Shown piece by piece: positions 1 through 26,432 of a stretch of 27,062 nt of DNA (its first letter is position 1; every line of letters begins with the position of its first letter). The notes beneath the pieces were generated by a model that saw nothing but the letters and a program-made list of their open reading frames with translations, was not told the origin of the DNA and made no database searches. This stretch comes from a virus. The translations under genes and the position numbers were made by a program. The stretch lies in the IMG/VR virus record IMGVR_UViG_3300022540_000268, positions 1 through 27,062 of that record. One strand, given 5' to 3'.

Positions 1-834
1 CATGAGAATATACATGGATCTGTTGCTCCTGTAGACAGAGAGAAGCAAACTCTCCAGGGCGATCTGATTCCAATCGACAGGTATTATACTCTTACAGACG
101 GCTCCTTGCATCCCCGAATGGCAGCAATAGATGATCTCAACAGGTTGGGAGATATATACAAAACAGATTGGGCTTTATTATGTGGAGTCGATAGAGCTGA
201 TCCTCTGAAGATCAATAAGATGGCCGGAGCGAGAACAATCGTCACTATCGTAGCAAAAGGTCTTCCGAACAGCAAAAACAATCCTGATATGTACCTTGAA
301 GAAGGAATGGTTAAAAATTATATCTACTTCATGCTGCATCTAACCCATATTGAATCAAATGAGCTTGAACACATCAAGAATACAATCAAAGAAGCAGCTG
401 ATGTGTTCGATGGGGTAGATACCTTATGTGCAGAGCGTTGGGGCATGTGGGACATTGCAGGATGGTGTGAAGAGCAGGAAATCATCTTTGAAGCTATCTC
501 TCCTACATACGAGCGCCAACGTAATGCATTCACTGAGTTGTACACCTTGTATAAAACAGGACTGTTCAAGACCCCTATAATTAGAGTGCCTGGATCAAAG
601 GAATCAGATGTTCTTGCAGAGGAAGCAGCTCTGTTTGATAGTAATCCTTTCAAGAAGTGGTATGGTTCTCCTGAGAAGAATGAAAAGTACGGTACTCAAG
701 ATGATAGCATGTTTGCTCTTGCTTGGAGCATCTATGGTGGAAGGAACTTAGGTGTTCAGGAGTTCAGGGAAAGAAAGAACGATTTTGTCTTCGCTGAGAT
801 GTTCCCAAACAAAGCCTTGATTGGAAAGTATTAA
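1..834 (+). CDS. terL: Terminase large subunit, C-terminal (nuclease) part; 5' end outside window
   Basis: Large terminase subunit, the motor and nuclease that cuts phage DNA and pumps it through the portal. The frame is open from base 1 with no credible start, so the gene enters from upstream; only the last 277 codons are here. The TTG at 106 lies inside this frame and is not taken as the start. The ATPase domain is missing. What remains looks like the RNase H-fold nuclease: an early acidic strand motif CGVDRADP (the Asp codon is at 190-192), a middle segment around AERWGMWDIAGW, and a late KWYGSPEK...YGTQDD motif (the Asp pair is at 700-705) followed by an ALAWSIYGG helix, as in lambda gpA-type and related terminases. 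It lies just ahead of the portal gene. The family call is firm; the subgroup is from memory of motifs. Confidence 0.88.
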   Translation, partial: HENIHGSVAPVDREKQTLQGDLIPIDRYYTLTDGSLHPRMAAIDDLNRLGDIYKTDWALLCGVDRADPLKINKMAGARTIVTIVAKGLPNSKNNPDMYLEEGMVKNYIYFMLHLTHIESNELEHIKNTIKEAADVFDGVDTLCAERWGMWDIAGWCEEQEIIFEAISPTYERQRNAFTELYTLYKTGLFKTPIIRVPGSKESDVLAEEAALFDSNPFKKWYGSPEKNEKYGTQDDSMFALAWSIYGGRNLGVQEFRERKNDFVFAEMFPNKALIGKY

Positions 835-846
835 ATAGTGTATAAT
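817..846 (+). promoter_or_regulatory. Predicted sigma70-type promoter ahead of the portal gene
   Basis: TTGATT at 817-822 and TATAAT at 841-846 are separated by 18 nt. The -35 box overlaps the terminase 3' end and the -10 box lies just after its stop. Initiation would be expected near 853, leaving a short leader before the portal ribosome-binding site at 872. The hexamers are directly visible; activity is inferred. Chance matches are possible in AT-rich DNA, but the position in one of the few intergenic gaps supports it. Confidence 0.45.
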
Positions 847-871
847 AAATTGGATTGGATTATTAATTAAT

Positions 872-875
872 GGAG
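872..875 (+). promoter_or_regulatory. Ribosome-binding site that decides the portal start
   Basis: GGAG lies 6 nt before the ATG at 882. The earlier in-frame ATG at 870 has no purine-rich site upstream, only TTATTAATTA, and would overlap this GGAG. The ATG at 882 is therefore preferred. Confidence 0.6.
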
Positions 876-881
876 ACAAAG

Positions 882-2486
882 ATGGAAAGGGATCAGAAGG
901 TAGTAGAGAAAATGGTAGATGAGATGCCTGATGATGTGTTACAATATGTGGCACAATCGTCTATGCCTTGGTCATCTCCTTACACAGGTGCAGAAACGGT
1001 AAAGGATGAAGACGGTTTTATTGTAAGTCCACTCACAGACTTTGCAGGATTCTCAAAACTGCAAATGGAATGTTGGAATAAGTTTATTGATAATCCTCAG
1101 ATCAATTCTCATGTACGTGATTTCATGGGAAGTCTCACGGGACATGGATTTGAAACAATCACAAGCGTTCCTGAGATTCAGGAAGTCATAGAGGAGATTG
1201 AGGAAGATCCTCGCAATGCTCTCTATGTGAATATGACAAAATACGTTGCAAGATCAGAGATTGAAGGAGAGCTTTTTCTTTGTCTTACTCTTCATCCCAA
1301 AGGTTTTATAGAAGTAGATTTTATGGATCCATCTTCTCTGAAAGGAGGAGGAGATAATAATTCAGGTATCTATTTTCATCCAAAAAAGCAAACAATGCCA
1401 CTTATGTATCGTTTTGAGGACGATAATAAGGAAGTAAATCACATTCCATCGATTAATTTAGCATATTATCCTGATATGTACAAAATTCTGAAGGAATCGA
1501 AGGGATATACAGCCAAAAAGGAAGGAAATTCACGTTATAGAGGCAAAAAGTTTAAGAAAATAGGAGGTTTCAATCGATTTATTGTTACCTGGGATAGAGG
1601 CTTTTTGACGAAACGGAACATTTCTCATATCAGAACTACTATCATTTGGATCAATCATTATGAGAATTTGAAGAAATGGGAGATAGATCATAAGAAATCA
1701 AGTGGATCTTATCTTTGGGTAGCTTCTATTACAGATTCAAAGGCATATAGAACATGGTTGAAGCTTACTCCTGAACAAAAGGCAGAAACAGGACTATTTG
1801 CGAAGAAGACCCCAGGTGGGACTCTTGTATTGCCTCCAGGTATTACACTTGAATGCAAGAATCCTAATCTTCCTAAGATTAGTGAGGCTGATACGGATAT
1901 CATGCATATGGTGACTTCAGGACTGAATACGCCTGAAGATATGGTTACTGGTGTAACAAAAGGCAGTACTTTTTCAGGAGTCAAGGCATCACGTGGGCCT
2001 CAATCTGACAGGGTACATGATAATATCGCATATTTTGAACGGTTCTTGCGTTTTGAGTTTTGGAGAGCTATCTTTTTTCTCAGATCAACTGTAACTAGTT
2101 TTCCAACAACATTTAAAGCAAAGGAAGTGATAGAGTTCAAGAACAAGGAACCTATCACTCGCAATGTGGTTCATCCTGCCCACAAGATGATTGATTTTGA
2201 ATTTCCAACTTCTGAAGTATCAGATGCAGAAGCTAAAGCAAAAGCTTATCTAGGAGTAAAACATCCATCCGTTGTTGAGGCTCTTGGTATTCCTAGATCA
2301 GTAGTGGCGAAGAAACTGGGATTCAATGGATACAGGAAGAAACGTCTTCTATATGCAACAGAGGATGAAATCTATCCTGAGTTGCCTCTTACAGTAGATT
2401 TAGAATCAATGCAAGAAGGGGGACAGGATCCTAAGAAATCGAACGGTGAGGAGATAAATACCCCTCCTCCTGATAAGAAGGAATGA
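882..2486 (+). CDS. Portal protein
   Basis: Portal protein, the dodecameric ring at one capsid vertex through which terminase pumps DNA and onto which the neck is built. From the ATG at 882 it has 534 residues, close to lambda gpB. Recognisable portal features are the early SMPWSSPYTGAET segment, an alpha/beta core with ARSEIEGELFLCL and VDFMDPSSL (roughly residues 125-155), and the later helical stretch TSGLNTPEDMVTGVTKGSTF, followed by an amphipathic helix rich in Phe and Arg where the crown and tunnel are usually built. The C terminus is hydrophilic and Pro/Lys-rich. Position between terminase and protease fits. An alternative start at 870 adds four residues but lacks a ribosome-binding site. 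Sequence identity to any named portal cannot be judged here. Confidence 0.85.
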   Translation: MERDQKVVEKMVDEMPDDVLQYVAQSSMPWSSPYTGAETVKDEDGFIVSPLTDFAGFSKLQMECWNKFIDNPQINSHVRDFMGSLTGHGFETITSVPEIQEVIEEIEEDPRNALYVNMTKYVARSEIEGELFLCLTLHPKGFIEVDFMDPSSLKGGGDNNSGIYFHPKKQTMPLMYRFEDDNKEVNHIPSINLAYYPDMYKILKESKGYTAKKEGNSRYRGKKFKKIGGFNRFIVTWDRGFLTKRNISHIRTTIIWINHYENLKKWEIDHKKSSGSYLWVASITDSKAYRTWLKLTPEQKAETGLFAKKTPGGTLVLPPGITLECKNPNLPKISEADTDIMHMVTSGLNTPEDMVTGVTKGSTFSGVKASRGPQSDRVHDNIAYFERFLRFEFWRAIFFLRSTVTSFPTTFKAKEVIEFKNKEPITRNVVHPAHKMIDFEFPTSEVSDAEAKAKAYLGVKHPSVVEALGIPRSVVAKKLGFNGYRKKRLLYATEDEIYPELPLTVDLESMQEGGQDPKKSNGEEINTPPPDKKE

Positions 2487-2505
2487 CAAGGTGTGCAGAT
2501 ATTCC

Positions 2506-2534
2506 TTGACTTTATTGTTACCAGACTATATTAT
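2506..2534 (+). promoter_or_regulatory. Predicted sigma70-type promoter ahead of protease/scaffold/capsid genes
   Basis: TTGACT at 2506-2511, a 17-nt spacer and TATTAT at 2529-2534 form a near-consensus promoter in the gap between portal and protease genes. Initiation near 2541 leaves room for the GGAGG at 2553 but almost none for the in-frame ATG at 2547. It would boost the protease, scaffold, decoration and capsid genes, which are needed in many copies. Activity is inferred from sequence only. Confidence 0.5.
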
Positions 2535-2552
2535 TAATTAAACTATATGGAC

Positions 2553-2557
2553 GGAGG
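2553..2557 (+). promoter_or_regulatory. Ribosome-binding site that decides the protease start
   Basis: GGAGG lies 4 nt before the ATG at 2562. The alternative in-frame ATG at 2547 precedes this site and has no purine-rich sequence of its own. Confidence 0.6.
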
Positions 2558-2561
2558 ACAT

Positions 2562-3935
2562 ATGCCGAAAACATACGAACGGATATTCGCTCAGTTGTTC
2601 AACACACCTTGGTTGATTACTGAAGACTGGATGAAAACGATCATTGAGATCGCCCGTCGAGAAGGAGATATTGAAGCAGTAAGATCCAAAATGTCTCAAC
2701 CACTTGATGAGACCAGAACAGCTTTCGTGAGAGATGGTGTTGCTCACATTCCAATCGCTGGTCCTATTTTTCCTAAAGCAAATCTAATGACAGAATTCAG
2801 TGGAGCGACTTCTATTGCAGCTCTTGCAAGAGATTTTGATGTAGCCCTGGATGATGATGACATTCACAGAATTGTCCTTGATATTGATTCTCCTGGAGGA
2901 GCAGTAACAGGGGTGAATGAAATGGCAAATATTATTAAACAGGCTAATGCCCATAAGGAAGTGATTTCTTATGTAAGTGGTACAGGAGCTTCAGCAGCCT
3001 ACTGGTTGGCATCTGCGGCGAATGAGGTAGTACTTGATGCTACTGCTCGTGTTGGTAGTATCGGTGTTGTTGTGGCGTATCCTTCTTCGAAGAATGAAGA
3101 CAGGATTGAAATTGTCAACACTGCAAGCCCGAATAAACGTATTGACCCAAGTACAGATAAGGGCAAAGAAGTTGTTACAGAGGAATTGGACGCTCTTGCC
3201 GATGTGTTCATTGCTACTGTAGCTGAAAATATGGGTGTCTCGGAGAAGGTTGTTCGTTCAGACTTTGGCCGAGGAGGAATACTGGTTGGTAAGAATGCTG
3301 TTGAGGTAGGAATGGCTGACCGGTTGGGATCATTTGAAACGCTCTTAACTGAAACAAGTAACTACGGAGGAAGTGTAATGACACAAAAAAGTACCAAAAC
3401 TACTGTAGTGACTGCTGAGTCTTTGAAGAAAGACCATCCGGAAGCCTACGAAGATGTTTTCAAGGCCGGTGCAGCTACTACGTTGTCTGAAAATGACAAG
3501 TCCATGAAGGATAAAGACGACCAGATTGCTAATCTGAAAGCTGATCTTGAGAAAGAAAAAGGTGCCAATGAAAAATTGAATGGTCGTGTTGATTCTTTGG
3601 AGAAAAATGAGATGATTCGATCTGCAAAAGAGATTGGAACATCTGCAACTGCAATTATGGACGCTAAACTGTCTGCAAGTGACATCCCTTCTAGCATGCA
3701 TGTTAAAGTAGCCAAAATGGTAGACCATAAGTCCTTTATGAAGGAAGGCATTTTTGATGCAACAGCATATTCTGCCGCTATTGATGCAGAAGTTGCTGAT
3801 TGGGAAAGTAAATTGGGTGATAATGACTCAGTTCTTGGTTTCAGTACTTCAGTTAAAGAAACATCTGAAGAAGAAAATGCTGAGACTGACTCCATCGTTG
3901 ATCGTATGATTGGTCACGTTAACATTGTTCAATAA
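2562..3935 (+). CDS. S49-family capsid (pro)head protease with C-terminal scaffold region
   Basis: Capsid maturation protease of the SppA/ClpP-like serine-lysine family S49, equivalent to lambda gpC. From the ATG at 2562 it has 457 residues. The protease domain occupies about the first 265: VLDIDSPGGAV (oxyanion-side strand and glycine loop), GTGASAAYWLAS with the likely nucleophile Ser144, then SPNKRIDP with the likely general base Lys192, 48 residues later, close to the spacing in bacterial SppA. FGRGGILVGKNAVEVGMAD closes the fold. The last 185 residues are hydrophilic and include a predicted coiled coil around DKDDQIANLKADLEKEKG; this part can also be made alone as scaffold (separate entry). 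In lambda-type phages this protein processes the scaffold and portal complex inside the prohead. Neighbours (portal, decoration, capsid) agree. Catalytic residues are assigned by motif, not by structure. Confidence 0.9.
   Translation: MPKTYERIFAQLFNTPWLITEDWMKTIIEIARREGDIEAVRSKMSQPLDETRTAFVRDGVAHIPIAGPIFPKANLMTEFSGATSIAALARDFDVALDDDDIHRIVLDIDSPGGAVTGVNEMANIIKQANAHKEVISYVSGTGASAAYWLASAANEVVLDATARVGSIGVVVAYPSSKNEDRIEIVNTASPNKRIDPSTDKGKEVVTEELDALADVFIATVAENMGVSEKVVRSDFGRGGILVGKNAVEVGMADRLGSFETLLTETSNYGGSVMTQKSTKTTVVTAESLKKDHPEAYEDVFKAGAATTLSENDKSMKDKDDQIANLKADLEKEKGANEKLNGRVDSLEKNEMIRSAKEIGTSATAIMDAKLSASDIPSSMHVKVAKMVDHKSFMKEGIFDATAYSAAIDAEVADWESKLGDNDSVLGFSTSVKETSEEENAETDSIVDRMIGHVNIVQ
3366..3370 (+). 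promoter_or_regulatory. Internal ribosome-binding site for the nested scaffold
   Basis: GGAGG inside the protease gene lies 7 nt before an in-frame ATG at 3378, an ideal spacing. In the longer protein it encodes part of the linker between the protease and scaffold regions. Confidence 0.7.
3378..3935 (+). CDS. Nested scaffolding protein (in-frame start inside the protease gene)
   Basis: A 185-residue scaffold identical to the C-terminal part of the protease, begun at an internal ATG at 3378 with its own GGAGG. The product is hydrophilic and acidic, with a heptad-like segment rich in Lys, Glu, Asp and Leu (about residues 45-75), and ends in an acidic stretch and VDRMIGHVNIVQ, as expected for a capsid-binding C-terminal helix. 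Lambda makes Nu3 in the same way from the 3' part of gene C, and many phages with S49 proteases share that design. Excess scaffold would shape the prohead around the capsid protein and then be digested by the protease. The start and ribosome-binding site are seen directly; the role is inferred by analogy. Confidence 0.72.
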   Translation: MTQKSTKTTVVTAESLKKDHPEAYEDVFKAGAATTLSENDKSMKDKDDQIANLKADLEKEKGANEKLNGRVDSLEKNEMIRSAKEIGTSATAIMDAKLSASDIPSSMHVKVAKMVDHKSFMKEGIFDATAYSAAIDAEVADWESKLGDNDSVLGFSTSVKETSEEENAETDSIVDRMIGHVNIVQ

Positions 3936-3949
3936 GGAGGACAGCTAAT

Positions 3950-4630
3950 ATGGCAACTGTAGGATTAGGCGGAAGCATTCCGCAAATGAATCGTTCAGGC
4001 ATTACCCCTGGCTCAAGAGCACTGTTTCACAGTGTCCGGGACATTGCCCTTATTATCGACAAGACTGTTAAAGCTGGTTATGGCTATTTGAAGGCTGGTA
4101 CTGTTATGGCCATCAGTGCTTATGACAGTGATCTTGTTCCCTATCCAGAAGCTGCATTTGCAACAAACCTTGCAAATGCGAAAGCTTTTCTTGTTGCAGA
4201 TAGTGGAGCAGCTTCTAATACTATAGAGGTTCTCAATGATGAAGCATATAAGTTTGGAGTTGGTGCCTCACTTATAGTTGTTGATGACACTACTGCCGCA
4301 GAAGATCTCGGAGCTATTACTGATATCACTCGTGGTGCAAATGGTATTGCAGTTATTACTGTCACTACCAATACTGGTGCAACATCATTCACTGTTGTTC
4401 GAACTGCAAGCGTAGTTCTGAAATCTGATACATCTGCCGGGTTCACTAAAGCCGCTTATGTTTTAGATCAGGACATTAATACCGGCTATGGTGCTGATGC
4501 ACTTGGCGCCAATACATCTGTAGTGATCAGTAATGCTGTATTGTATTCTGCTCCTATGGTAAACCTTGATGCGGCAGCAATTACTGACTTAGGTGTAGTC
4601 AGTGATGGTCGTTTCGCTATCCTCAAGTAA
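3950..4630 (+). CDS. Head decoration (capsid-stabilising) protein, lambda gpD-like, with inserted domain
   Basis: Probable decoration protein that sits on the outer capsid surface and stabilises the expanded shell. It starts at the ATG at 3950 behind AGGAGG (3935-3940) and has 226 residues, about twice lambda gpD. The N-terminal VKAGYGYLKAGTVMAI and C-terminal GFTKAAYVLDQDI...NAVLYSAPMVN segments resemble the gpD-type fold, in which a short beta-rich core is preceded by a flexible arm. Between them, residues about 78-155 form a Thr/Val-rich, beta-predicted insert that resembles a segment of the neighbouring capsid protein. Position directly before the capsid gene, as D precedes E in lambda, is the strongest evidence. 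The alternative is a head fibre or other accessory capsid protein. Confidence 0.68.
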   Translation: MATVGLGGSIPQMNRSGITPGSRALFHSVRDIALIIDKTVKAGYGYLKAGTVMAISAYDSDLVPYPEAAFATNLANAKAFLVADSGAASNTIEVLNDEAYKFGVGASLIVVDDTTAAEDLGAITDITRGANGIAVITVTTNTGATSFTVVRTASVVLKSDTSAGFTKAAYVLDQDINTGYGADALGANTSVVISNAVLYSAPMVNLDAAAITDLGVVSDGRFAILK

Positions 4631-4645
4631 GGGAGAAATGACATT

Positions 4646-5872
4646 ATGAAAGGTTCTGCCGGAATCCCGGCCTTACAATTAGAGGTACTGAATAAACTTA
4701 TCACTAAGTTTGATCGGGCACCCTCCATGTTCTTCACCGGACTCTTCCCTGCTGTGCAGGCTGAGTCTGATACTATTAAATGGGAAATCGAATACGGCTC
4801 TGCCGGAATGACTCCTTTCGTAGCTCCTGGTTCTGTTGCTCCTGCTATCGGACTTGACGGAATTGGTGAGGGTTCTGCGAAAGCAGCATTCTATAAAGAG
4901 AAAATGTATTTTGATGAAGTATTTCTCAACAACATGCGTGAACCAGGCACATACGCCACTTACCAGACTGCTGAACGCAAACTGGCAAAAGGTGTTCGTA
5001 AGCTTCGTTTCCGCATTGATCGTCGCCGTGAATGGATGATGTCTCAGATGCTTCTCAATGGTACTTTGAGTTACACCATGAAAGGTGGTACCAAGTTTTC
5101 CGTTTCTTATGGTATCCCTGCATCTCATCTCATCACTCTTGCAACTGATGATAAGTGGGGCACAGGTTCTACTCGTAATCCTGTACGTGATATTTACGAT
5201 GCCAAGTCCCTCCTTGCTGATGACGCTGGAGTTACTCCATCTTATGCAATTTTGAATAGTGAGCTTCTGAAGACTCTTATCCTTGATTCGAATATTCAGT
5301 CTCTCCTTAGTAAGAGTGCATTTGGTGATGGTTCTCTCTTTACAAATCCCGCACAGGTTATTGGTGAGTTGCTTGGCGTAGGCAAACTGATGATCTACGA
5401 TGAGCTTTACGAAGTAACTGGTTGGTTGACTGGCGCTGTTACAGGTGGAGCTACAACTGCTATTCCGGTGGATGATACCTCTGATTTTGAAGCTGGTGCT
5501 AAGTTGCGCTTTATTGATGTATCTGAGCCTAATACCTGGGAAGACTGTACAATTGCCAGTGTTGATCATACAGCTGGAACTGTGACTGTTGCTGTGGCTC
5601 CTGTAGCCAGTTACGTTGCTGGTGAAGATAAAGTTATCATGCGGAAGAAATTCATTGATGACAATACCTTCATGCTTTTCTCTACTATATCGGCTGATGG
5701 AGATTCTATTGCAGAATTTATGGAAGCTCCTTATGGTATCGGAAGACGTTGGGGAACCTACGCAGATACTAAAGACGAGTGGGATCCAGAAGGTCTATGG
5801 ATGCGTATTCAGGATAAAGGTCTTCCAGTAATGTATCATCCTGATACTACCGTTCGTATTACAGTTCGATAA
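4646..5872 (+). CDS. Major capsid protein, lambda gpE-like, with inserted surface domain
   Basis: Major capsid protein that builds the icosahedral shell. It has 408 residues, about 67 more than lambda gpE. Family features: an N-terminal segment around LNKLITKFDRAPSMF, the FDEVFLNNMREPGTYATY stretch, long basic helices RKLRFRIDRRREWMMSQML (the spine-helix region of the HK97 fold) and a C-terminal RRWGTYADTKDEWDPEGLW...KGLPVMYHPD block typical of gpE-type proteins. Residues about 255-336 form a Thr/Val/Ala-rich beta insert with the VDDTSDFEAGAKLRFID motif, which accounts for the extra length and is probably exposed on the capsid surface. The start at 4646 has GGGAG at 4631-4635; an ATG at 4638 is out of frame and stops after three codons. 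The absence of a long cleaved leader suggests the protein itself need not be processed. Confidence 0.9.
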   Translation: MKGSAGIPALQLEVLNKLITKFDRAPSMFFTGLFPAVQAESDTIKWEIEYGSAGMTPFVAPGSVAPAIGLDGIGEGSAKAAFYKEKMYFDEVFLNNMREPGTYATYQTAERKLAKGVRKLRFRIDRRREWMMSQMLLNGTLSYTMKGGTKFSVSYGIPASHLITLATDDKWGTGSTRNPVRDIYDAKSLLADDAGVTPSYAILNSELLKTLILDSNIQSLLSKSAFGDGSLFTNPAQVIGELLGVGKLMIYDELYEVTGWLTGAVTGGATTAIPVDDTSDFEAGAKLRFIDVSEPNTWEDCTIASVDHTAGTVTVAVAPVASYVAGEDKVIMRKKFIDDNTFMLFSTISADGDSIAEFMEAPYGIGRRWGTYADTKDEWDPEGLWMRIQDKGLPVMYHPDTTVRITVR

Positions 5873-10084: not shown

Positions 10085-10597
10085 ATGAGTAATAAATTAA
10101 ATCCACAAATCCAGACTTTGGAAATAGGGGTAAAATCCCTCAAAGAAGTAACCATCTATCCCCTTTCTATGGCAGATCAGTTCCATTTATCTGACATCAT
10201 ATCTAAAGCAGTATCTAAATATTCAAAACCCGATGAGCCTCAAAAAGATGCTGATGAGCCGTCACAGGATGAACAGCAAGATAACACCCCTAAGACTGAA
10301 GTAGAGGTGTTTCGTGCGATCATGACCCTTGTAGAGGAGAATTTGATTACTATTCTTGATCTTGTTACAGACGATGAGGTTCAAATCAGTTTAAATGATC
10401 TTACCAATCCCCAGTTTGCTGATCTTTGTACCATTATATACGAGGAGAATTTTGACAATGCCGCGGGAAAGCTTCTGAGTCTCTTCAACAAAACCAAGAC
10501 ACTCTTAAAGTCGAAGAGGCTGCAACAGAAATCATCCTTAAAACCAGCTATAAATACGAACACTTCTTCCGACTCTCATTCAGAGATGGAGGAATAA
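10085..10597 (+). CDS. Tail assembly chaperone, short form (gpG-like)
   Basis: A 170-residue hydrophilic protein with AGGAG 7 nt before its ATG. It starts after the tail tube and hairpin. The N-terminal half reads like the short form of siphovirus tail chaperones (IQTLEIGVKSLKEVTIYPLSMADQFHLSDII), followed by an acidic Gln/Glu/Asp-rich linker (EPQKDADEPSQDEQQDN) and a helical part (VEVFRAIMTLVEENLITILDLVT, FADLCTIIYEENFDN). About 40 codons before its stop is the heptamer GGGAAAG. A minority of ribosomes should slip there to make the longer form. As in lambda gpG, this form is believed to coat the tape measure during tail assembly. Function is inferred from position and the slippery signal. 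Confidence 0.7.
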   Translation: MSNKLNPQIQTLEIGVKSLKEVTIYPLSMADQFHLSDIISKAVSKYSKPDEPQKDADEPSQDEQQDNTPKTEVEVFRAIMTLVEENLITILDLVTDDEVQISLNDLTNPQFADLCTIIYEENFDNAAGKLLSLFNKTKTLLKSKRLQQKSSLKPAINTNTSSDSHSEMEE

Positions 10598-10878
10598 CCA
10601 AAAATCAATTTAATTCTTTGTTTGAAGGGATTCAGAAAGAAAAAATAAGTGAATGGGAATTTCAAGCAGCATTGCAAGGGGTGGACTTAGAGAATAAGAA
10701 TAAAAATACTTCATCTCATTCTTCATCTCCTCCTGCTAATACAGTTGATCCAGAGATTCCTCTCTTTGGTGATCCTGCTGATTATCAATCCATGACAATG
10801 GAAGAGAAAAAAGAAAAGACTACATCAATGAAGAACAGGCATAGAGCCTGGTCTAATAGGTCGTTTATGGAAGGATAA
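10085..10878 (+). CDS. Tail assembly chaperone, frameshift-extended form (gpGT-like)
   Basis: The fused product made by -1 slippage at 10465-10471: 129 codons in the first frame (10085-10471), then bases 10471-10878 in the -1 frame, giving about 264 residues. The -1 frame is open from 10456, just 9 nt ahead of the slip site, right through to TAA at 10876-10878. The TTG at 10618 in that frame has no ribosome-binding site, so a separate gene is less likely. The added part has a helical KVEEAATEIILK...FRLSFRDGG... stretch and a Lys/Glu-rich end. In lambda the GT form recruits tube subunits to the tape measure. The tape-measure gene starts 4 nt after its stop. The site and frames are seen; slippage efficiency cannot be seen. 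Confidence 0.8.
10465..10471 (+). promoter_or_regulatory. Programmed -1 ribosomal frameshift site (GGGAAAG)
   Basis: The heptamer GGGAAAG sits in the phase G-GGA-AAG relative to the upstream gene, the pattern that lets both tRNAs slip back one base. It is the same heptamer used by lambda between G and T. The nearest upstream stop in the -1 frame is at 10453-10455, and none follows until 10876. Confidence 0.85.
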
Positions 10879-20300: not shown

Positions 20301-21116
20301 GTTACAGTAACAGGTGAAGGATTGTACTTCCTTGAAGTAACGTACCCTGAAGAGCTTATAGACGCTATTATGGGAACAGGAGGATGGTGGGAAAGTGAAG
20401 AAAAGATTATTAGAGTGAATTATTCAAATGATCTTGATCTAGTTTGTTATGATCCAAGAATGGTAGTGATTACATCAATTAAAGATTTTAAGATTCTATG
20501 GTCAAGAAGTGGTGGAGATGAATGGATTTCTGCTGTAGATACTGAGAATCGTTGGTTAGAAATAACTGTCAAGTTTCCAGGCATTATGGATGTTCTTATT
20601 TTCATGATAGGATTTATGATATTAGTAGGCTATAAGGCAATGGGATGCAAAGTTAATTGTGGTTGGTGGATTTATCTACTCTCCCTTGTATCTTCTGTTT
20701 GTTCTTGGATTCTTGGACAGGTAGCAACATATGAATATGAAATTTATGCCAAACCAACAGGAGAAGAAAAACAAATAGTTTCTTCTTATGTTGATGATTT
20801 GGACTTCCAAAGAGAGTTGGGTGGATTAGTAGTGAATGAGGAGTTTGAAGACCCCTTTTGCTACACTACCCAATCTTGCAATGAAGTCGCTACTCATGAG
20901 ATGAATATAGTTCGAGCGCAAAGGAGTAGAGTTCATTTTGAAAAATTAGCTCACCTACAGGATGAAATTTGTGATAGAATACAAATTAAGCATCCGTATG
21001 CAGGAACTCCGATTGATGTTTATATAACTGATTTGGAACGATCATATACCCGTCCTAAAAAAGGTGCTCCAGGAATGGGTGCATTTATTGACAAAATAAC
21101 AGGTTGGAGATTATGA
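17316..21116 (+). CDS. Tail hub protein fused to a sialidase-like beta-propeller
   Basis: A 1266-residue tail-tip protein. The first 25 residues (LNSTLSEAQDSMERTPLVKM) and 727 to the end look like a siphovirus tail hub: TWQWGNEEEITIEHS, VKWSVESTGTLSFSVSH, a two-lobed beta hub region (KGKIIELSFGELIEGV, FIIDTIRLEYIRGQYPVMSV), DHFQCIPYFDMDGKFSPKV and a conserved-looking C-terminal IKHPYAGTPIDVYITDLERSY block. Inserted between are about 700 residues of repeated strands typical of beta-propellers. One exact Asp-box, SDDYGLTW (Ser258-Trp265), is characteristic of sialidases and related propellers. Residues 1090-1106 and 1116-1137 form two hydrophobic segments inside the hub. It overlaps its neighbours by one and four bases. 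Enzyme activity cannot be inferred from one Asp-box; a carbohydrate-binding propeller is equally possible. Confidence 0.75.
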   Translation: MALVLNSTLSEAQDSMERTPLVKMLATQNPESMPFDGQYFNNYDPREHNTTLITLSDGRLFGAYNEYKAFNEDWITFVWTDTARTFWSTAKIELAGIQPESICVVELLNNNIGVIFVQDKRYAHAGATNSLYYMVVTPLGVQVIAPTIIETWAISGEHPNGVSVILLDDDTYFMSYCLDLMEEDPDPLYELHTRTSSNFTTWSDESIESLSPLLTTRDINNTSLVQPSTTEILLFFDYVDYSKDDGDTVVRNIYFILSDDYGLTWAAPVKITNYTEWGTTGSNPYAAERTNGDLALAFTDEQSVLFANEDSLLWENPCTEFNNTNASNIHFNPVTERLYVCQIYAYVGTKSICGVVVIDTTTWEVIGNYNTQSSPDYHDIFKDSHVWIGKDHGEGEFICFSTYSSSKHLCIIDDSIESVTQYHFNDNVEYEIDCNVDISWPQHEYMSMEDSAFIRATWVDSISRRVYVVFAYSYVYWRGFLLGYIELDDIVDPATGKYLFHTLNSTANIFSEAQVMGMKGMLVIPELNLIALTGNSALPTHSQYPGKLILVDLNSGAIVKTFTTVSHNSFPHGGLNWVTYYDGYIFGSFDYTTVDDQENHRGMCKIHIDSEIITYHEPTWATMDDYGLRQKVPTGDGRILVAVQWGPGGVAEFNIASGSWKMHSGETIQGFEPSGEDTSVVSVAYDASNDQIMCGSIDPITASSFIGVRMFNEIGSYEKGTLIPAIKSVTWQWGNEEEITIEHSETDSAIAIAPDNILWTIWVRKDAEEYSIKWDRDIKEKMLADHLVAGRSVSVKWSVESTGTLSFSVSHGHLFDPNNLMSTWNNFLKKGKIIELSFGELIEGVPYWQTQGKFIIDTIRLEYIRGQYPVMSVTCVSPDFIWGEVHVEASERYDTNDPEDMATNLLIDLTGMSSEEINMPLFPISHEIHHQWIDTNFQSIIMEILDHFQCIPYFDMDGKFSPKVISIDGDVDHTYTGAELIKFTPDDNYSSYTNRVTVTGEGLYFLEVTYPEELIDAIMGTGGWWESEEKIIRVNYSNDLDLVCYDPRMVVITSIKDFKILWSRSGGDEWISAVDTENRWLEITVKFPGIMDVLIFMIGFMILVGYKAMGCKVNCGWWIYLLSLVSSVCSWILGQVATYEYEIYAKPTGEEKQIVSSYVDDLDFQRELGGLVVNEEFEDPFCYTTQSCNEVATHEMNIVRAQRSRVHFEKLAHLQDEICDRIQIKHPYAGTPIDVYITDLERSYTRPKKGAPGMGAFIDKITGWRL

Positions 21117-22216
21117 GAACTTATCGTAGAAATTTCATTAAGAAAGCCCTAAATGATTCTACTAAAAGGAGTAAAGAATCTCGTGATGGGGTTATTTGGT
21201 ATGTAGATTCAGACAGTAGTTGCAGAGTCAAGATACAAGGGACTGATAATCTTGTAACCGCTCATTTTCCTAGAAATCAAAAAGCAAGGCCATCTTGGAT
21301 GAGGCCAGGCAACGCTGTTAGGATAATTCACAGAGGAGGAACACGAGGATACATTGAAGTAGCTGGACAAGGTAGGGCAATACCTCAACCCTCTTTAGGC
21401 AACGCATTGCCTAATCCAGGAATCACAGGAGATGGCATCATTGAAGGAATGCTAACTACAGCAACTGAACCACCAGGCAATTCTGTTACTATCACAAATG
21501 GGTCATATCGTATAAATGGTATTATCTATTATTTCACTGGTACAGGTTTAGGATATGTTTTAATGAAAGATCCTGCCACTATGACAATGGGGGATTATCC
21601 TGTTACTAAAATGGGAATATCTCTTTATTATTTAGACCCTGCTCCTGCTGTAGGATATTTCAGATACGATATCCTTGTAATTGGCAATGATCAAATGATA
21701 GACTATATCAAAGGAGGTGAAGTAACAAGTAATCCAGTTATGCCTGATGTCCCAACGAATCATATTTTGATTTGTTCAATATTACGAATAGGAGCCGACA
21801 CAGTAGTAGAGAATTCAAGAATAGGGATGAAATGGACTACTCCCAAGGTAACACAAGTTGAGTTGGTTTATGATCCAGATTTCTATTGGGATTTTGGAGA
21901 TGATACTCCTGAGATGGATATTCAGATAAAAATCAAAGATCAATATGGGCATTCTATATCAACTGTAGTTTATACAAGGATTTCTTTGCAAAAGTTATTC
22001 GGAACTGGTAAGGTATGGTCAGAATCAACAGGGTATCATGATACCTATGTGCAGCAAATAATTACAGGCAGTTCTTACACTTTTAAGTACGAAAGGAATC
22101 AATTGGCATCACCAGAGATTTATCCACATCTTTTGTTTACATTAGATTCGTCACCTGAATTGTATGCAGAAGCTAGTGATATTGTACTCTACGATGATCA
22201 AGGCGATCCTATTTAG
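21113..22216 (+). CDS. Tail tip protein with OB-fold, likely baseplate/fibre attachment
   Basis: A 367-residue protein starting at ATG 21113, which overlaps the hub stop as ATGA and has TTGGAG just upstream; an in-frame TTG at 21104 is possible. After a basic N terminus, residues about 20-90 look like an OB fold (VIWYVDSDSSCRVKIQG, VTAHFPRN, MRPGNAVRIIHRGGTRGYIEVAG), as in the needle/hub proteins of tail tips. Residues 95-240 include NGSYRINGIIYYF and FRYDILVIGNDQMIDYIKGGE followed by VMPDVPTNHILICSILR, a pattern common in phage structural proteins that anchor fibres. The final part (EMDIQIKIKDQYGHSISTVVYTRISL) is beta-rich. It probably links the hub to the side fibres encoded downstream. Confidence 0.55.
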   Translation: MRTYRRNFIKKALNDSTKRSKESRDGVIWYVDSDSSCRVKIQGTDNLVTAHFPRNQKARPSWMRPGNAVRIIHRGGTRGYIEVAGQGRAIPQPSLGNALPNPGITGDGIIEGMLTTATEPPGNSVTITNGSYRINGIIYYFTGTGLGYVLMKDPATMTMGDYPVTKMGISLYYLDPAPAVGYFRYDILVIGNDQMIDYIKGGEVTSNPVMPDVPTNHILICSILRIGADTVVENSRIGMKWTTPKVTQVELVYDPDFYWDFGDDTPEMDIQIKIKDQYGHSISTVVYTRISLQKLFGTGKVWSESTGYHDTYVQQIITGSSYTFKYERNQLASPEIYPHLLFTLDSSPELYAEASDIVLYDDQGDPI

Positions 22217-22971: not shown

Positions 22972-23979
22972 ATGGCTTTACTATTTATGGATGGATTTGA
23001 TCACATTGATGATGGATATGAACTTACTAAATGGGATTCTGCGATTGATATCACTTGTGCATCTGGATTAGGGAGAACAGGAGGGTTTGGAATAAATTTA
23101 TATGGAGGTGGAAAATTAAAAAAGTACTTTTCTCATAATCCAACAACTCTGATAACAGGGATGGCTTGTAAATTTGAATCATTTTCCACTTCTACTCCAT
23201 TTTTATCTTTCCATGCAAATGAAGTGACACAGGTTAGTTTGTATCGATACAGTGACGGCTCTCTTGTAGTAAAGAGATATACTACAGTTATTGGTACTTC
23301 TGCTGTTGGTGTAATTCCTGCCCAAACATGGGGTTATATAGAATTTAAAGTACTCTTTTCAAACACAGTAGGCACAATAGATGTAAAGGTTGATGGTGTC
23401 AGTGTTATAAGTGAAACAGGATTAGATACCTGTTATGAAGGGTCTGAATATGCAAATCGATTAACTATAAATACTACTTATGTTATTCATGATGTCTATT
23501 TTGACGATTTGTATGTATGCGATGGTGCAGGAACAATAAATAATGATTTTCTTGGAGATGTTACTATTTCTCCACTATACCCAACTTCTGATGGAACCTA
23601 TTCTGATTTTACTCCTTCAGCAGGAGTAGATCACTACGCTCTTGTTGATGATCCTCAGTTATCAGATGATATAGACCATATAGAAAGTGGCACTGTTGGT
23701 CATAAAGATACATTTGGAGTAACTACTTTTCCTGGTTCAGATGTAATTCATGGTGTACAGATTAATGTTGCAACAAGGAATACAGATGTTGGATCATTAG
23801 GAATATCTACTTTGTTGATTTCAGGAATCACTCCAACTGAAACAGATGGAAGTACTCATATGATTTCTCAAACTCCTTCTGGAACTACTTCTGTGTATGA
23901 AAAAGAACCCATAGATGATGCAGTATGGACAGCCACTACAATAGGGAATGCTGAGTTTGGGGTTAAAGTTAAATCATAA
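22972..23979 (+). CDS. Lectin-like (concanavalin-type) tail protein, first of a tandem pair
   Basis: A 335-residue protein with AGGAG before ATG. It opens LLFMDGFDHIDDGYELTKWD and continues with a beta-sandwich pattern typical of laminin-G/concanavalin-like domains: FGINLYGGGKLKKYF, TLITGMACKFESF, WGYIEFKVLFSNTVGTIDVKVDGVSVISETG, then VYFDDLYVCDGAGTINNDFLGDV. The second half (PTSDGTYSDFTPSAGVDHYALVDD and beyond) is shared almost throughout with the next gene. The domain fold suggests binding to a sugar or surface receptor. The DGFDH start and IEFKVxFSxTxGTxxVxVDG core occur in other phage tail proteins from memory. Whether it is part of the virion cannot be told from sequence, but its position in the fibre cassette favours it. 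Confidence 0.6.
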   Translation: MALLFMDGFDHIDDGYELTKWDSAIDITCASGLGRTGGFGINLYGGGKLKKYFSHNPTTLITGMACKFESFSTSTPFLSFHANEVTQVSLYRYSDGSLVVKRYTTVIGTSAVGVIPAQTWGYIEFKVLFSNTVGTIDVKVDGVSVISETGLDTCYEGSEYANRLTINTTYVIHDVYFDDLYVCDGAGTINNDFLGDVTISPLYPTSDGTYSDFTPSAGVDHYALVDDPQLSDDIDHIESGTVGHKDTFGVTTFPGSDVIHGVQINVATRNTDVGSLGISTLLISGITPTETDGSTHMISQTPSGTTSVYEKEPIDDAVWTATTIGNAEFGVKVKS

Positions 23980-23991
23980 TGGGAGAAGAAA

Positions 23992-25017
23992 ATGTCTTTA
24001 TTATTTTGTGATAGTTTTGGTCATACAGAAGATGGATATGAACTTACTAAGTGGGATAATGTTAATCAAGAAAATTATATACTGTATTTAAGTACTGTTG
24101 GATCACTTGGTGGATATGGTTTACGTATGTATATTAATGAAGCTGCGAGATTGTTCAAATCATTGCTTACTAATCCAACTACTGTAATCGTTGGATTTAG
24201 ACATAAGGGAGATCTTTATCATAGTTCTGGCACATACTCTTCTCTTGCATTCAGAGTAAATGGAACAACTCAGTGTTGGTTCGGAATGCTTCGTGGAGGA
24301 CGAATAGGATTTTATAGAGGTTCTACCTTATTGTTTTCATCAAGTCGATGTTATGAACTTCAAGCATGGAGTTATTTTGAATTTAAAGTAACTTTTTCTT
24401 TAACCGTAGGGACAGTAGATGTAAAGGTTGATGGAGTTAGTGTTATAAGTGAGACAGGAGTAAATACCTGTTATGAAGGAACTAATGAATACACAGATCA
24501 ATTTTATATAGGAAATGGAACATCCGAATACGTCTATTTTGACGATTTGTATGTATGTGATGCTACTGGATTATATAATAATGATTTCCTTGGAGATGTG
24601 AAAGTAGATTTATTATACCCAACTTCTGATGGAACCTATACTGATTTTACTCCCTCTACAGGAATAGACCACTTTGCTCTTGTTGATGATCCTCAGTTAT
24701 TAAGCGATACAGATCATAATGAATCATCTACAATTGGTCATAAAGACAATTATGGAATGACTACATACAGTTCAGGGGCTACTATCTTTGGACTTCAGAT
24801 ATCAGCAGCAGTAAAGAATACTGATGTTGGTACAATGAATGTTAGGACTTTATTAAGAAGTGGCGGAACTCCAGCTGATACTGAAGGATCTTCTGTTGTA
24901 CTTAGTCAGACTATGACTGGAATACAAACAACGTATGATCGTGAACCAATTGATTCCGTAGCTTGGACTACTACGAATATTAATAATGCTGAATTTGGTA
25001 TTAAGGTGCAAAGCTAA
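23992..25017 (+). CDS. Lectin-like tail protein, second of a tandem pair
   Basis: A 341-residue paralogue of the previous gene, with GGGAGAAG just upstream. The opening (SLLFCDSFGHTEDGYELTKWD), the centre (FKVTFSLTVGTVDVKVDGVSV...YFDDLYVCDATG) and the C-terminal half (PTSDGTYTDFTPSTGIDHFALVDD, GHKDNYGMTTY, NTDVGTMNVRTLLRSGG) match the first copy closely, while residues about 22-130 differ greatly. That is the pattern of a conserved scaffold with an exchanged recognition region. The gene ends in TAATG with the start of the next reading frame. The two copies may give the phage alternative receptors or form mixed fibres. Confidence 0.6.
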   Translation: MSLLFCDSFGHTEDGYELTKWDNVNQENYILYLSTVGSLGGYGLRMYINEAARLFKSLLTNPTTVIVGFRHKGDLYHSSGTYSSLAFRVNGTTQCWFGMLRGGRIGFYRGSTLLFSSSRCYELQAWSYFEFKVTFSLTVGTVDVKVDGVSVISETGVNTCYEGTNEYTDQFYIGNGTSEYVYFDDLYVCDATGLYNNDFLGDVKVDLLYPTSDGTYTDFTPSTGIDHFALVDDPQLLSDTDHNESSTIGHKDNYGMTTYSSGATIFGLQISAAVKNTDVGTMNVRTLLRSGGTPADTEGSSVVLSQTMTGIQTTYDREPIDSVAWTTTNINNAEFGIKVQS

Positions 25018-25160
25018 TGGCTGACACTACTACAAAATCTCAATAAGTCACTGAGGCAGTAAAATCAGGTGAACCAAACACAAGGCTTTCCCAATTAGTC
25101 ACTGAGGCAGTAACCTCAGGTGAGCCTAAGGCAAGGATACCCCAAGTCGTTGCTGAGGTA
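25017..25160 (+). pseudogene. N-terminal part of the repeat-bearing gene, interrupted by in-frame TAA
   Basis: ATG 25017 overlaps the stop of the previous gene (TAATG), as other starts in this operon do. Only MADTTTKSQ is read before TAA at 25044-25046. The same frame is then open, without another stop, through to 26434. The neighbouring repeat unit has TTA at the position of this TAA, so one base change makes the stop. Without it, the gene would run 25017-26432 as one protein of 471 residues. See the findings. Confidence 0.7.
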
Positions 25161-25232
25161 ATGTCAGATCCTTCCCCTGTTGCTCGAATTCCCCAAGTCG
25201 TTGCTGAGGTAATGTATTCTACTGAAGCAGGT
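25035..25232 (+). repeat. Four tandem 51-bp (17-codon) coding repeats
   Basis: Units run 25035-25085, 25086-25136, 25137-25187 and 25188-25232 (the last shortened by two codons), with a partial fifth from 25233. Each encodes (L/I)(S/P)Q(L/V)V(T/A)E(A/V)(V/M)...; units 1 and 2 (CTGAGGCAGTAA) and units 3 and 4 (CCCCAAGTCGTTGCTGAGG) pair as close copies. Similar 'ARxSQ' type repeats occur between domains of some phage tail proteins as I remember them. Confidence 0.9.
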
Positions 25233-26432
25233 CTTTCCCAGTATGTCACTGACTTTTCAGAATATACCCTTACTGAGACTCTAAATGATTGGTCTGACTT
25301 CTATAGTACAGGAGATTTTACTTACACAGCAGAAAGCAATTTAGGATTAGATCATCCAGTAGGATCTAAGTATGTAGAATTCATTACATCAGCAACAGAT
25401 TCTAATTACATTACATGGGATCCACTTCCTAATATCAAACATTCAAGTATCCTTTGTGGATTTCACAAGACTCCATCTTCTTCAGGATTCCAAATTGCCT
25501 CAAGATTGTATGGATCTATAGGAGATGAATATGCTTATTTTTTCCAGATCACAAGTACTACCATTTCAATTCGTAAAATTATAGCAGGATTAGAATCCAC
25601 CCTTGTGTCAGAAACTTTTACTCAAACATCTGATGAATACTGGGTAAGATTTCATACAGAAGGAACTGCATTAAAAGCTAGAATATGGCCTAAGAATGCA
25701 ATTGAGCCTACAACTTGGTCGATATCTACAACTGATTTGGATCTTACTACAGGTCAAATTGCTATTGGATTACCTATAGGATCTGAAACAGTATATATTG
25801 ATTATTTCGGAGTTAATTCAAAATACCTCCCTGAGCCTGTTCCTGAAGGTCAATTTCCTCCTTCAGGGTTGACCCCTGAAATTTTGTCTACAACGATTGT
25901 ACCTACAACTACAAGCTCCTCTGTTGCAGGAGCTTGGTCACATTCTATGATGAATTCAGGAGTCAGAAGACACATGACAGGTGCAAATATTTATTGTACC
26001 AATCATTCAGATCAAATCAGACTCGCTCTGTATTATGGTGGCTCTCTTACAGATCCTTCAGGAGCAATTCTATTGAAAGACTTCGGTTTAACATCTGGAT
26101 CAGTTATAAATGATTTTATCTTCATTGCTTGTAGTCCAGAAGTCGCAATTCCAGCAAATTGTGTATTATGGTTTGTATTTAAAGGAGATAATCCAGCAGG
26201 GTTTTATGTGCCCAGAACTGCTAGTCTTGCTCATCATGGAAATACTTCTTCAGATGCAGGAGCATATACTCTTAATAATCACATAGACAGTGATCCTGAT
26301 GTTGCATTTGAAAGAACTTTGCCTGTTGCTTCAGCCACAACAGGGTCTAATTATTATAAATTTAAAATAGATTTAATCAATGCACCAGCAAAGGTAGATA
26401 TTAAACCTCTTGTATTTAAGCTTGAATCTTAG
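25161..26432 (+). CDS. Repeat-bearing receptor-binding candidate with lectin-like domain; likely main product after an upstream stop
   Basis: A 423-residue protein if translation begins at ATG 25161, which has only a weak GAGG 2 nt upstream; 25212 is another poorly placed start. The natural start is more likely 25017 (see the interrupted part). After the repeats, residues about 30-215 look like a concanavalin-type domain (YTLTETLNDWSDFY, SKYVEFITSA, SSILCGFHKTP, EYWVRFHTEGTALKARIWP, GQIAIGLPIGSETVYIDYFGV), often found in phage adhesins. A Pro/Thr linker (QFPPSGLTPEILSTTIVPTTTSSS) joins a second, unfamiliar beta-rich domain (QIRLALYYGGSL, VLWFVFKGDNPAGFYVP). Two DNA hairpins lie in the linker. 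Role in receptor binding is inferred from fold and context. Confidence 0.6.
   Translation: MSDPSPVARIPQVVAEVMYSTEAGLSQYVTDFSEYTLTETLNDWSDFYSTGDFTYTAESNLGLDHPVGSKYVEFITSATDSNYITWDPLPNIKHSSILCGFHKTPSSSGFQIASRLYGSIGDEYAYFFQITSTTISIRKIIAGLESTLVSETFTQTSDEYWVRFHTEGTALKARIWPKNAIEPTTWSISTTDLDLTTGQIAIGLPIGSETVYIDYFGVNSKYLPEPVPEGQFPPSGLTPEILSTTIVPTTTSSSVAGAWSHSMMNSGVRRHMTGANIYCTNHSDQIRLALYYGGSLTDPSGAILLKDFGLTSGSVINDFIFIACSPEVAIPANCVLWFVFKGDNPAGFYVPRTASLAHHGNTSSDAGAYTLNNHIDSDPDVAFERTLPVASATTGSNYYKFKIDLINAPAKVDIKPLVFKLES
25862..25936 (+). other. Two adjacent hairpins in the domain linker of the repeat-bearing gene
   Basis: TTCAGGG at 25862-25868 pairs with CCCTGAA at 25874-25880 (5-nt loop). CAAGCTCCT at 25912-25920 pairs with AGGAGCTTG at 25928-25936 (7-nt loop). 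Both stems are perfect and fall inside the linker between the lectin-like domain and the C-terminal domain. Neither is followed by a T-run. Confidence 0.7.

Follow-up and report, generated by a model that had tools for sequence, protein, structure and literature searches.

Lesions in the stf gene were found in 19 of 21 independent clones of lambda mutants selected in soft agar, and the side tail fibre is dispensable (PMC2762979). In Brevundimonas phage vB_BpoS-Leszy, the gene LESZY_00110, annotated as a "putative lectin-like domain protein", encodes repeats similar to those described here (34% identity over 64 aa, with a weak E value of 0.1) and has a phrog_2448-like gene two genes upstream, but its array is C-terminal and the rest of the protein is different. 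The window analysed here, a 27-kb fragment (27,062 nucleotides) from an IMG/VR virus record, contains a gene with such an array that is interrupted near its beginning by a stop codon. All of the features discussed below are on the plus strand.

Besides one weak match to a portal protein, the window contains genes for a head maturation protease, a 2,023-residue tape measure protein, and tail proteins. It also contains a terminase-like fragment, which has no library match and was named from its position and relatives, and a probable major capsid protein, assigned without a family scan. Immediately ahead of the tape measure gene, positions 10085 to 10878 probably encode a G/GT pair of tail chaperones that involves a −1 frameshift. 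The heptamer GGGAAAG at 10465 to 10471, which is the lambda G-GT slip site, is in the correct register for a −1 slip (G GGA AAG). Positions 10456 to 10878 are open in the second frame, which makes TTG 10618 an improbable start.

The interrupted gene begins with an ATG at 25017 to 25019 that is in frame with a TAG at 26430 to 26432. As a preliminary description of this sequence had stated, only one stop codon, the TAA at 25044 to 25046, separates this ATG from the end of the frame at 26432. The TAA is codon 10 of the gene, preceded by nine codons (MADTTTKSQ-stop-VTEAV). The whole frame comprises 472 codons with no second internal stop, and the part beyond the TAA (25047 to 26432) stays open for 461 codons with normal codon usage.

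The stop lies within an array of about four tandem 17-residue repeats with the pattern [AR][VI][ST]Qx3E[VA]. Unit 1 (25038 to 25088; 17 codons) carries the TAA as its third codon and is followed by unit 2 (25089 to 25139), unit 3 (25140 to 25190), and unit 4 with a degenerate partial unit 5 (25191 to 25253). Four copies of the motif CARNNNGTNRCNGARGY are present in the window, against a chance expectation of 0.02, and all of them are in the array, at a 51-nt spacing. Units 1 and 2 are 80% identical over 51 nt, and comparison of unit 1 (TCT CAA TAA GTC ACT GAG GCA GTA) with unit 2 (TCC CAA TTA GTC ACT GAG GCA GTA) bears out the earlier observation that CAA-TAA in the first corresponds to CAA-TTA in the second, leaving the stop one base from a sense codon. 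The TAA is at a variable position after SQ in the family repeats, so the broken codon does not point to a residue of special importance.

We searched for related arrays with two DNA patterns. Two successive repeat units recovered 12 viral contig stretches, and Met followed by a repeat recovered nine more. The 17-residue repeat is present in many uncultured phages, often directly behind the start codon. In ten distinct IMG/VR gene groups, with near-duplicates counted once, at most a few residues separate the array from the initiator Met; the Met-plus-repeat pattern produces this N-terminal position partly by construction, but it played no part in the recovery of L013, L014, and L023. The N-termini of these relatives are MADARVSQEALEVL, MADGRVTQAVVEVL, MANPRVSQTAIEVL, MAGDRISQYPIEVL, MANDRISQEPVEVL, MAGQRVTQTPAEVL, MAEARISQEALEVL, MTASRVSQEVTEVL, MAENASQIVAEIL, and MSIIRVTQEVLESL, and MADTTTKSQ in the window is matched by MADARVSQ and similar beginnings. 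In other loci recovered with the two-unit pattern (L012, L016, L017, L018, and L021), the array is internal or C-terminal. Inspection of the locus in related phages had been proposed as a check on the stop, and none of the ten gene groups that we examined has an in-frame stop in its array. The window frame thus has one premature stop, at codon 10, where its relatives stay open. Because its array is not open, we class it as a disrupted gene of the repeat-array kind and not as an intact member.

The sequence beyond the stop belongs to the same array. Residues 1 to 65 and 1 to 69 past the TAA align with the repeats of other phages (E of about 2e-7), and the codons between the TAA and the ATG at 25161 are included in this protein match (L021 and L023). 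Repeat number differs between relatives, as does what follows the array: a baseplate-hub region (PF09931/PF09356) in L014, DUF2460 in L013, and a phosphoesterase in L055. In L023, L048, L050, and L056, the array is joined to almost nothing else.

Gene order provides a second point of comparison. Two tandem paralogues of the phrog_2448 family, 53% identical to each other, precede the repeat gene in the window: a tail-region protein of 335 aa (22972 to 23979; hmmscan E of 7.7e-43) and a second protein of 341 aa (23992 to 25017; hmmscan E of 2.5e-33). The stop codon of the latter (TAA, 25015 to 25017) shares one base with the ATG at 25017. Eight of the ten gene groups likewise lie 0 to 34 nt behind a phrog_2448-family gene. 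The Met-plus-repeat scan yielded seven distinct genes; the six with a visible flank (L048, L049, L050, L053, L054, and L056) all have a phrog_2448 gene ending 0 to 24 nt upstream, and the contig of the seventh, L055, lacks an upstream flank. The array genes of L014 and L023 start 9 and about 30 nt, respectively, past a phrog_2448 gene, which in L023 was recognised both by profile and by similarity to the two copies in the window; none was recognised ahead of the L013 array gene. As in the window, two adjacent phrog_2448 genes are present in the L053 genome. The eight phrog_2448-linked loci (L014, L023, L048, L049, L050, L053, L054, and L056) thus share with the window the gene order, the spacing, and an array directly after Met. 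They differ from it in that their arrays are open and in what follows them: L014 has the baseplate-hub domain, and others have unassigned domains or nothing. Since the arrays of these relatives come right after Met and behind a phrog_2448 gene, position 25017 is the family start and the TAA is a disruption. More generally, a phrog_2448 gene followed by a gene for a 17-residue-repeat protein is a recurrent and apparently unnamed pair in uncultured phages (L014, L021, L023, L048, L049, L050, L053, L054, and L056).

Translation signals were compared among the candidate starts. An in-frame stop at 25002 to 25004 leaves 25017 as the sole upstream candidate, and a frame scan found no in-frame ATG, GTG, or TTG between the TAA and the ATG at 25161 to 25163, which lies within repeat unit 3. 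A weak Shine-Dalgarno sequence, AAGG (25003 to 25006), is located 10 nt before ATG 25017 and pairs with the anti-Shine-Dalgarno sequence at −4.0 kcal/mol; for many window genes, this value is −5.5 to −11.9 kcal/mol. The pairing is −0.2 kcal/mol at both 25161 and 25212, and the GAGG ahead of 25161 is just 2 nt from the ATG, in agreement with the earlier remark that 25161 lacks a good ribosome-binding site. We also looked among the relatives for genes beginning at the equivalent of 25161, which the preliminary description had named as one of the findings that would overturn its reading, and there were none: the array-first relatives begin before unit 1 and none begins inside the array, which rules out 25161 as the true start. 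Elsewhere in the window, the gene at 21104 to 22216 is listed with a TTG start at 21104 that has no Shine-Dalgarno sequence; ATG 21113, which follows a GGAG and forms an ATGA with the stop codon of the upstream gene, is the likelier start.

Downstream of the repeats, the frame encodes a lectin-like (LamG-type) domain with approximate limits of 25233 to 25830 (phrog_24476, E of 6e-8), followed by a further region. The domain is 25% identical over 265 aa to the L021 protein (E of 3e-17). The L021 gene (6394 to 7281) is also behind a phrog_2448 gene and encodes the same lectin-like domain and the same repeats, but in reversed order, with the lectin first and the repeats C-terminal. This reversal indicates module shuffling. 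The repeats, the lectin-like domain, and the location in a tail-gene cluster suggest that the product is probably a tail adhesin or fibre. The domains to which the repeats are joined in other phages make a position in the virion tail likely. The predicted structure had a mean pLDDT of 32, too low to be of use.

Searches with the whole protein against viral contigs and against bacterial and archaeal genomes found no relative, nor did a DNA search of phage records; the only matches in phage records were weak ones to the lectin domain. The tail-tip protein and the gene at 23992 had no relatives in viral contigs, an exact-sequence search around the TAA gave no match, and the matches to the repeat pattern that we inspected in bacterial genomes appeared chance-like. 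Positions 1 to 5872 have relatives in L057, L058, L061, and others, in which no match to the phrog_2448/repeat module was found. Contigs related by terminase and major capsid protein, with identities of up to 88%, had no match to the repeat gene or to phrog_2448; many are short, and although the phrog_2448 search was positive in five of five control contigs, absence is informative only if a contig reaches the tail genes. These comparisons suggest that tail-adhesin cassettes are exchanged on a conserved head, and such modular exchange would account for the missing close comparison.

Taken together, we judge it probable, with considerable room for doubt, that this locus represents a recent or polymorphic single-base nonsense loss of a probable tail adhesin gene starting at 25017. 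The gene would encode N-terminal 17-residue repeats, then the lectin-like domain, and then the further region; a single-base change would have turned codon 10 into TAA; and translation would end after nine residues, so that little or no adhesin would be made from this copy. The undecayed downstream frame would place the change recently or make it polymorphic in the phage population. We computed that the frame from 25017 to 26432 would gain about 68 stops for each substitution per site, and the finding of zero further stops bounds neutral divergence at less than about 4 to 5% by our own calculation, with P = 0.05 and neutrality assumed. An intact remainder of the frame means that the change is recent, polymorphic, or an assembly error; it would fit continued expression, or a single wrong base in the sequence of an intact gene, equally well. 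Of the several possibilities raised in the preliminary description, nonsense mutation and error are the two that our results favour, with the family start at 25017 and a variable codon in the first repeat.

A base-call or assembly error, with the TAA confined to the metagenomic contig and the phage itself carrying an intact gene, is unlikely but deserves serious consideration. Unit 1 is one base from a sense codon in an otherwise perfect frame, the stop is absent from relatives, and the window is a fragment from an IMG/VR virus record, all of which fits an error. Against this, no other broken gene caught our attention across the 27 kb, which argues that errors are infrequent. Moreover, substitution errors outside homopolymer runs are uncommon in well-covered short-read assemblies; the change in unit 1 is such a substitution, a point that weighs against error only with good coverage.

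Alternatively, ribosomes might re-initiate at ATG 25161 or 25212 to give a truncated lectin-like protein with fewer repeats. The open downstream frame and its normal codon usage would allow this, and the varying repeat number among relatives suggests that loss of units may be tolerated. Nevertheless, we consider re-initiation improbable, given the pairing of −0.2 kcal/mol at both starts, the GAGG only 2 nt from its ATG, a distance of at least 114 nt between the stop and these sites, and the absence of any relative with a start inside the array.

Programmed readthrough of the TAA, producing a small amount of full-length adhesin, is highly improbable. The intact downstream frame is its sole support. 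Of the three stop codons, UAA generally allows the least readthrough in bacteria, and here it is the stop in question; RNA structure 3′ of the TAA was not significantly above that of shuffled sequences (z of −0.91); no tRNA was found in the window; the stop is conserved in none of the ten gene groups; and, nine codons into the gene, it would yield no useful short form. With no signal and no conservation of the stop, we rejected readthrough. It would be just as surprising if the TAA were a deliberate switch that leaves most virions without the adhesin, with rare readthrough, or repeat recombination removing the stop unit, providing it to a minority. Finally, reassignment of TAA to an amino acid, which has nothing in its favour and which the preliminary description had already doubted, is ruled out by gene ends to the point of being negligible: TAA ends 15 of the 26 tabulated frames (among the 15 is the 9-codon ORF of the interrupted gene itself), the terminase fragment and the probable major capsid protein, both ending in TAA, stop where relatives that are 51 to 88% identical stop, and most TAA-terminated frames reach another stop within 16 codons.

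We therefore regard an ordinary loss-of-function change or a sequencing error, and no new kind of gene expression, as the most likely account of this locus. The more useful result is the recurrent pairing of phrog_2448 with a repeat gene, which fixes starts that annotation tools would place inside the repeats. If the stop is real, the locus would be another natural loss of an accessory phage tail adhesin, comparable to the loss of side tail fibres in laboratory mutants of lambda. There, too, the lesion is in an accessory tail-adhesin gene with the rest of the phage intact, and such variants arise fast and are selectable (PMC2762979). The likeness is one of consequence only, and the proteins are not known to be related. 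Most of the lambda stf lesions are indels within homonucleotide runs (PMC2762979), whereas the change in the window is one substitution.
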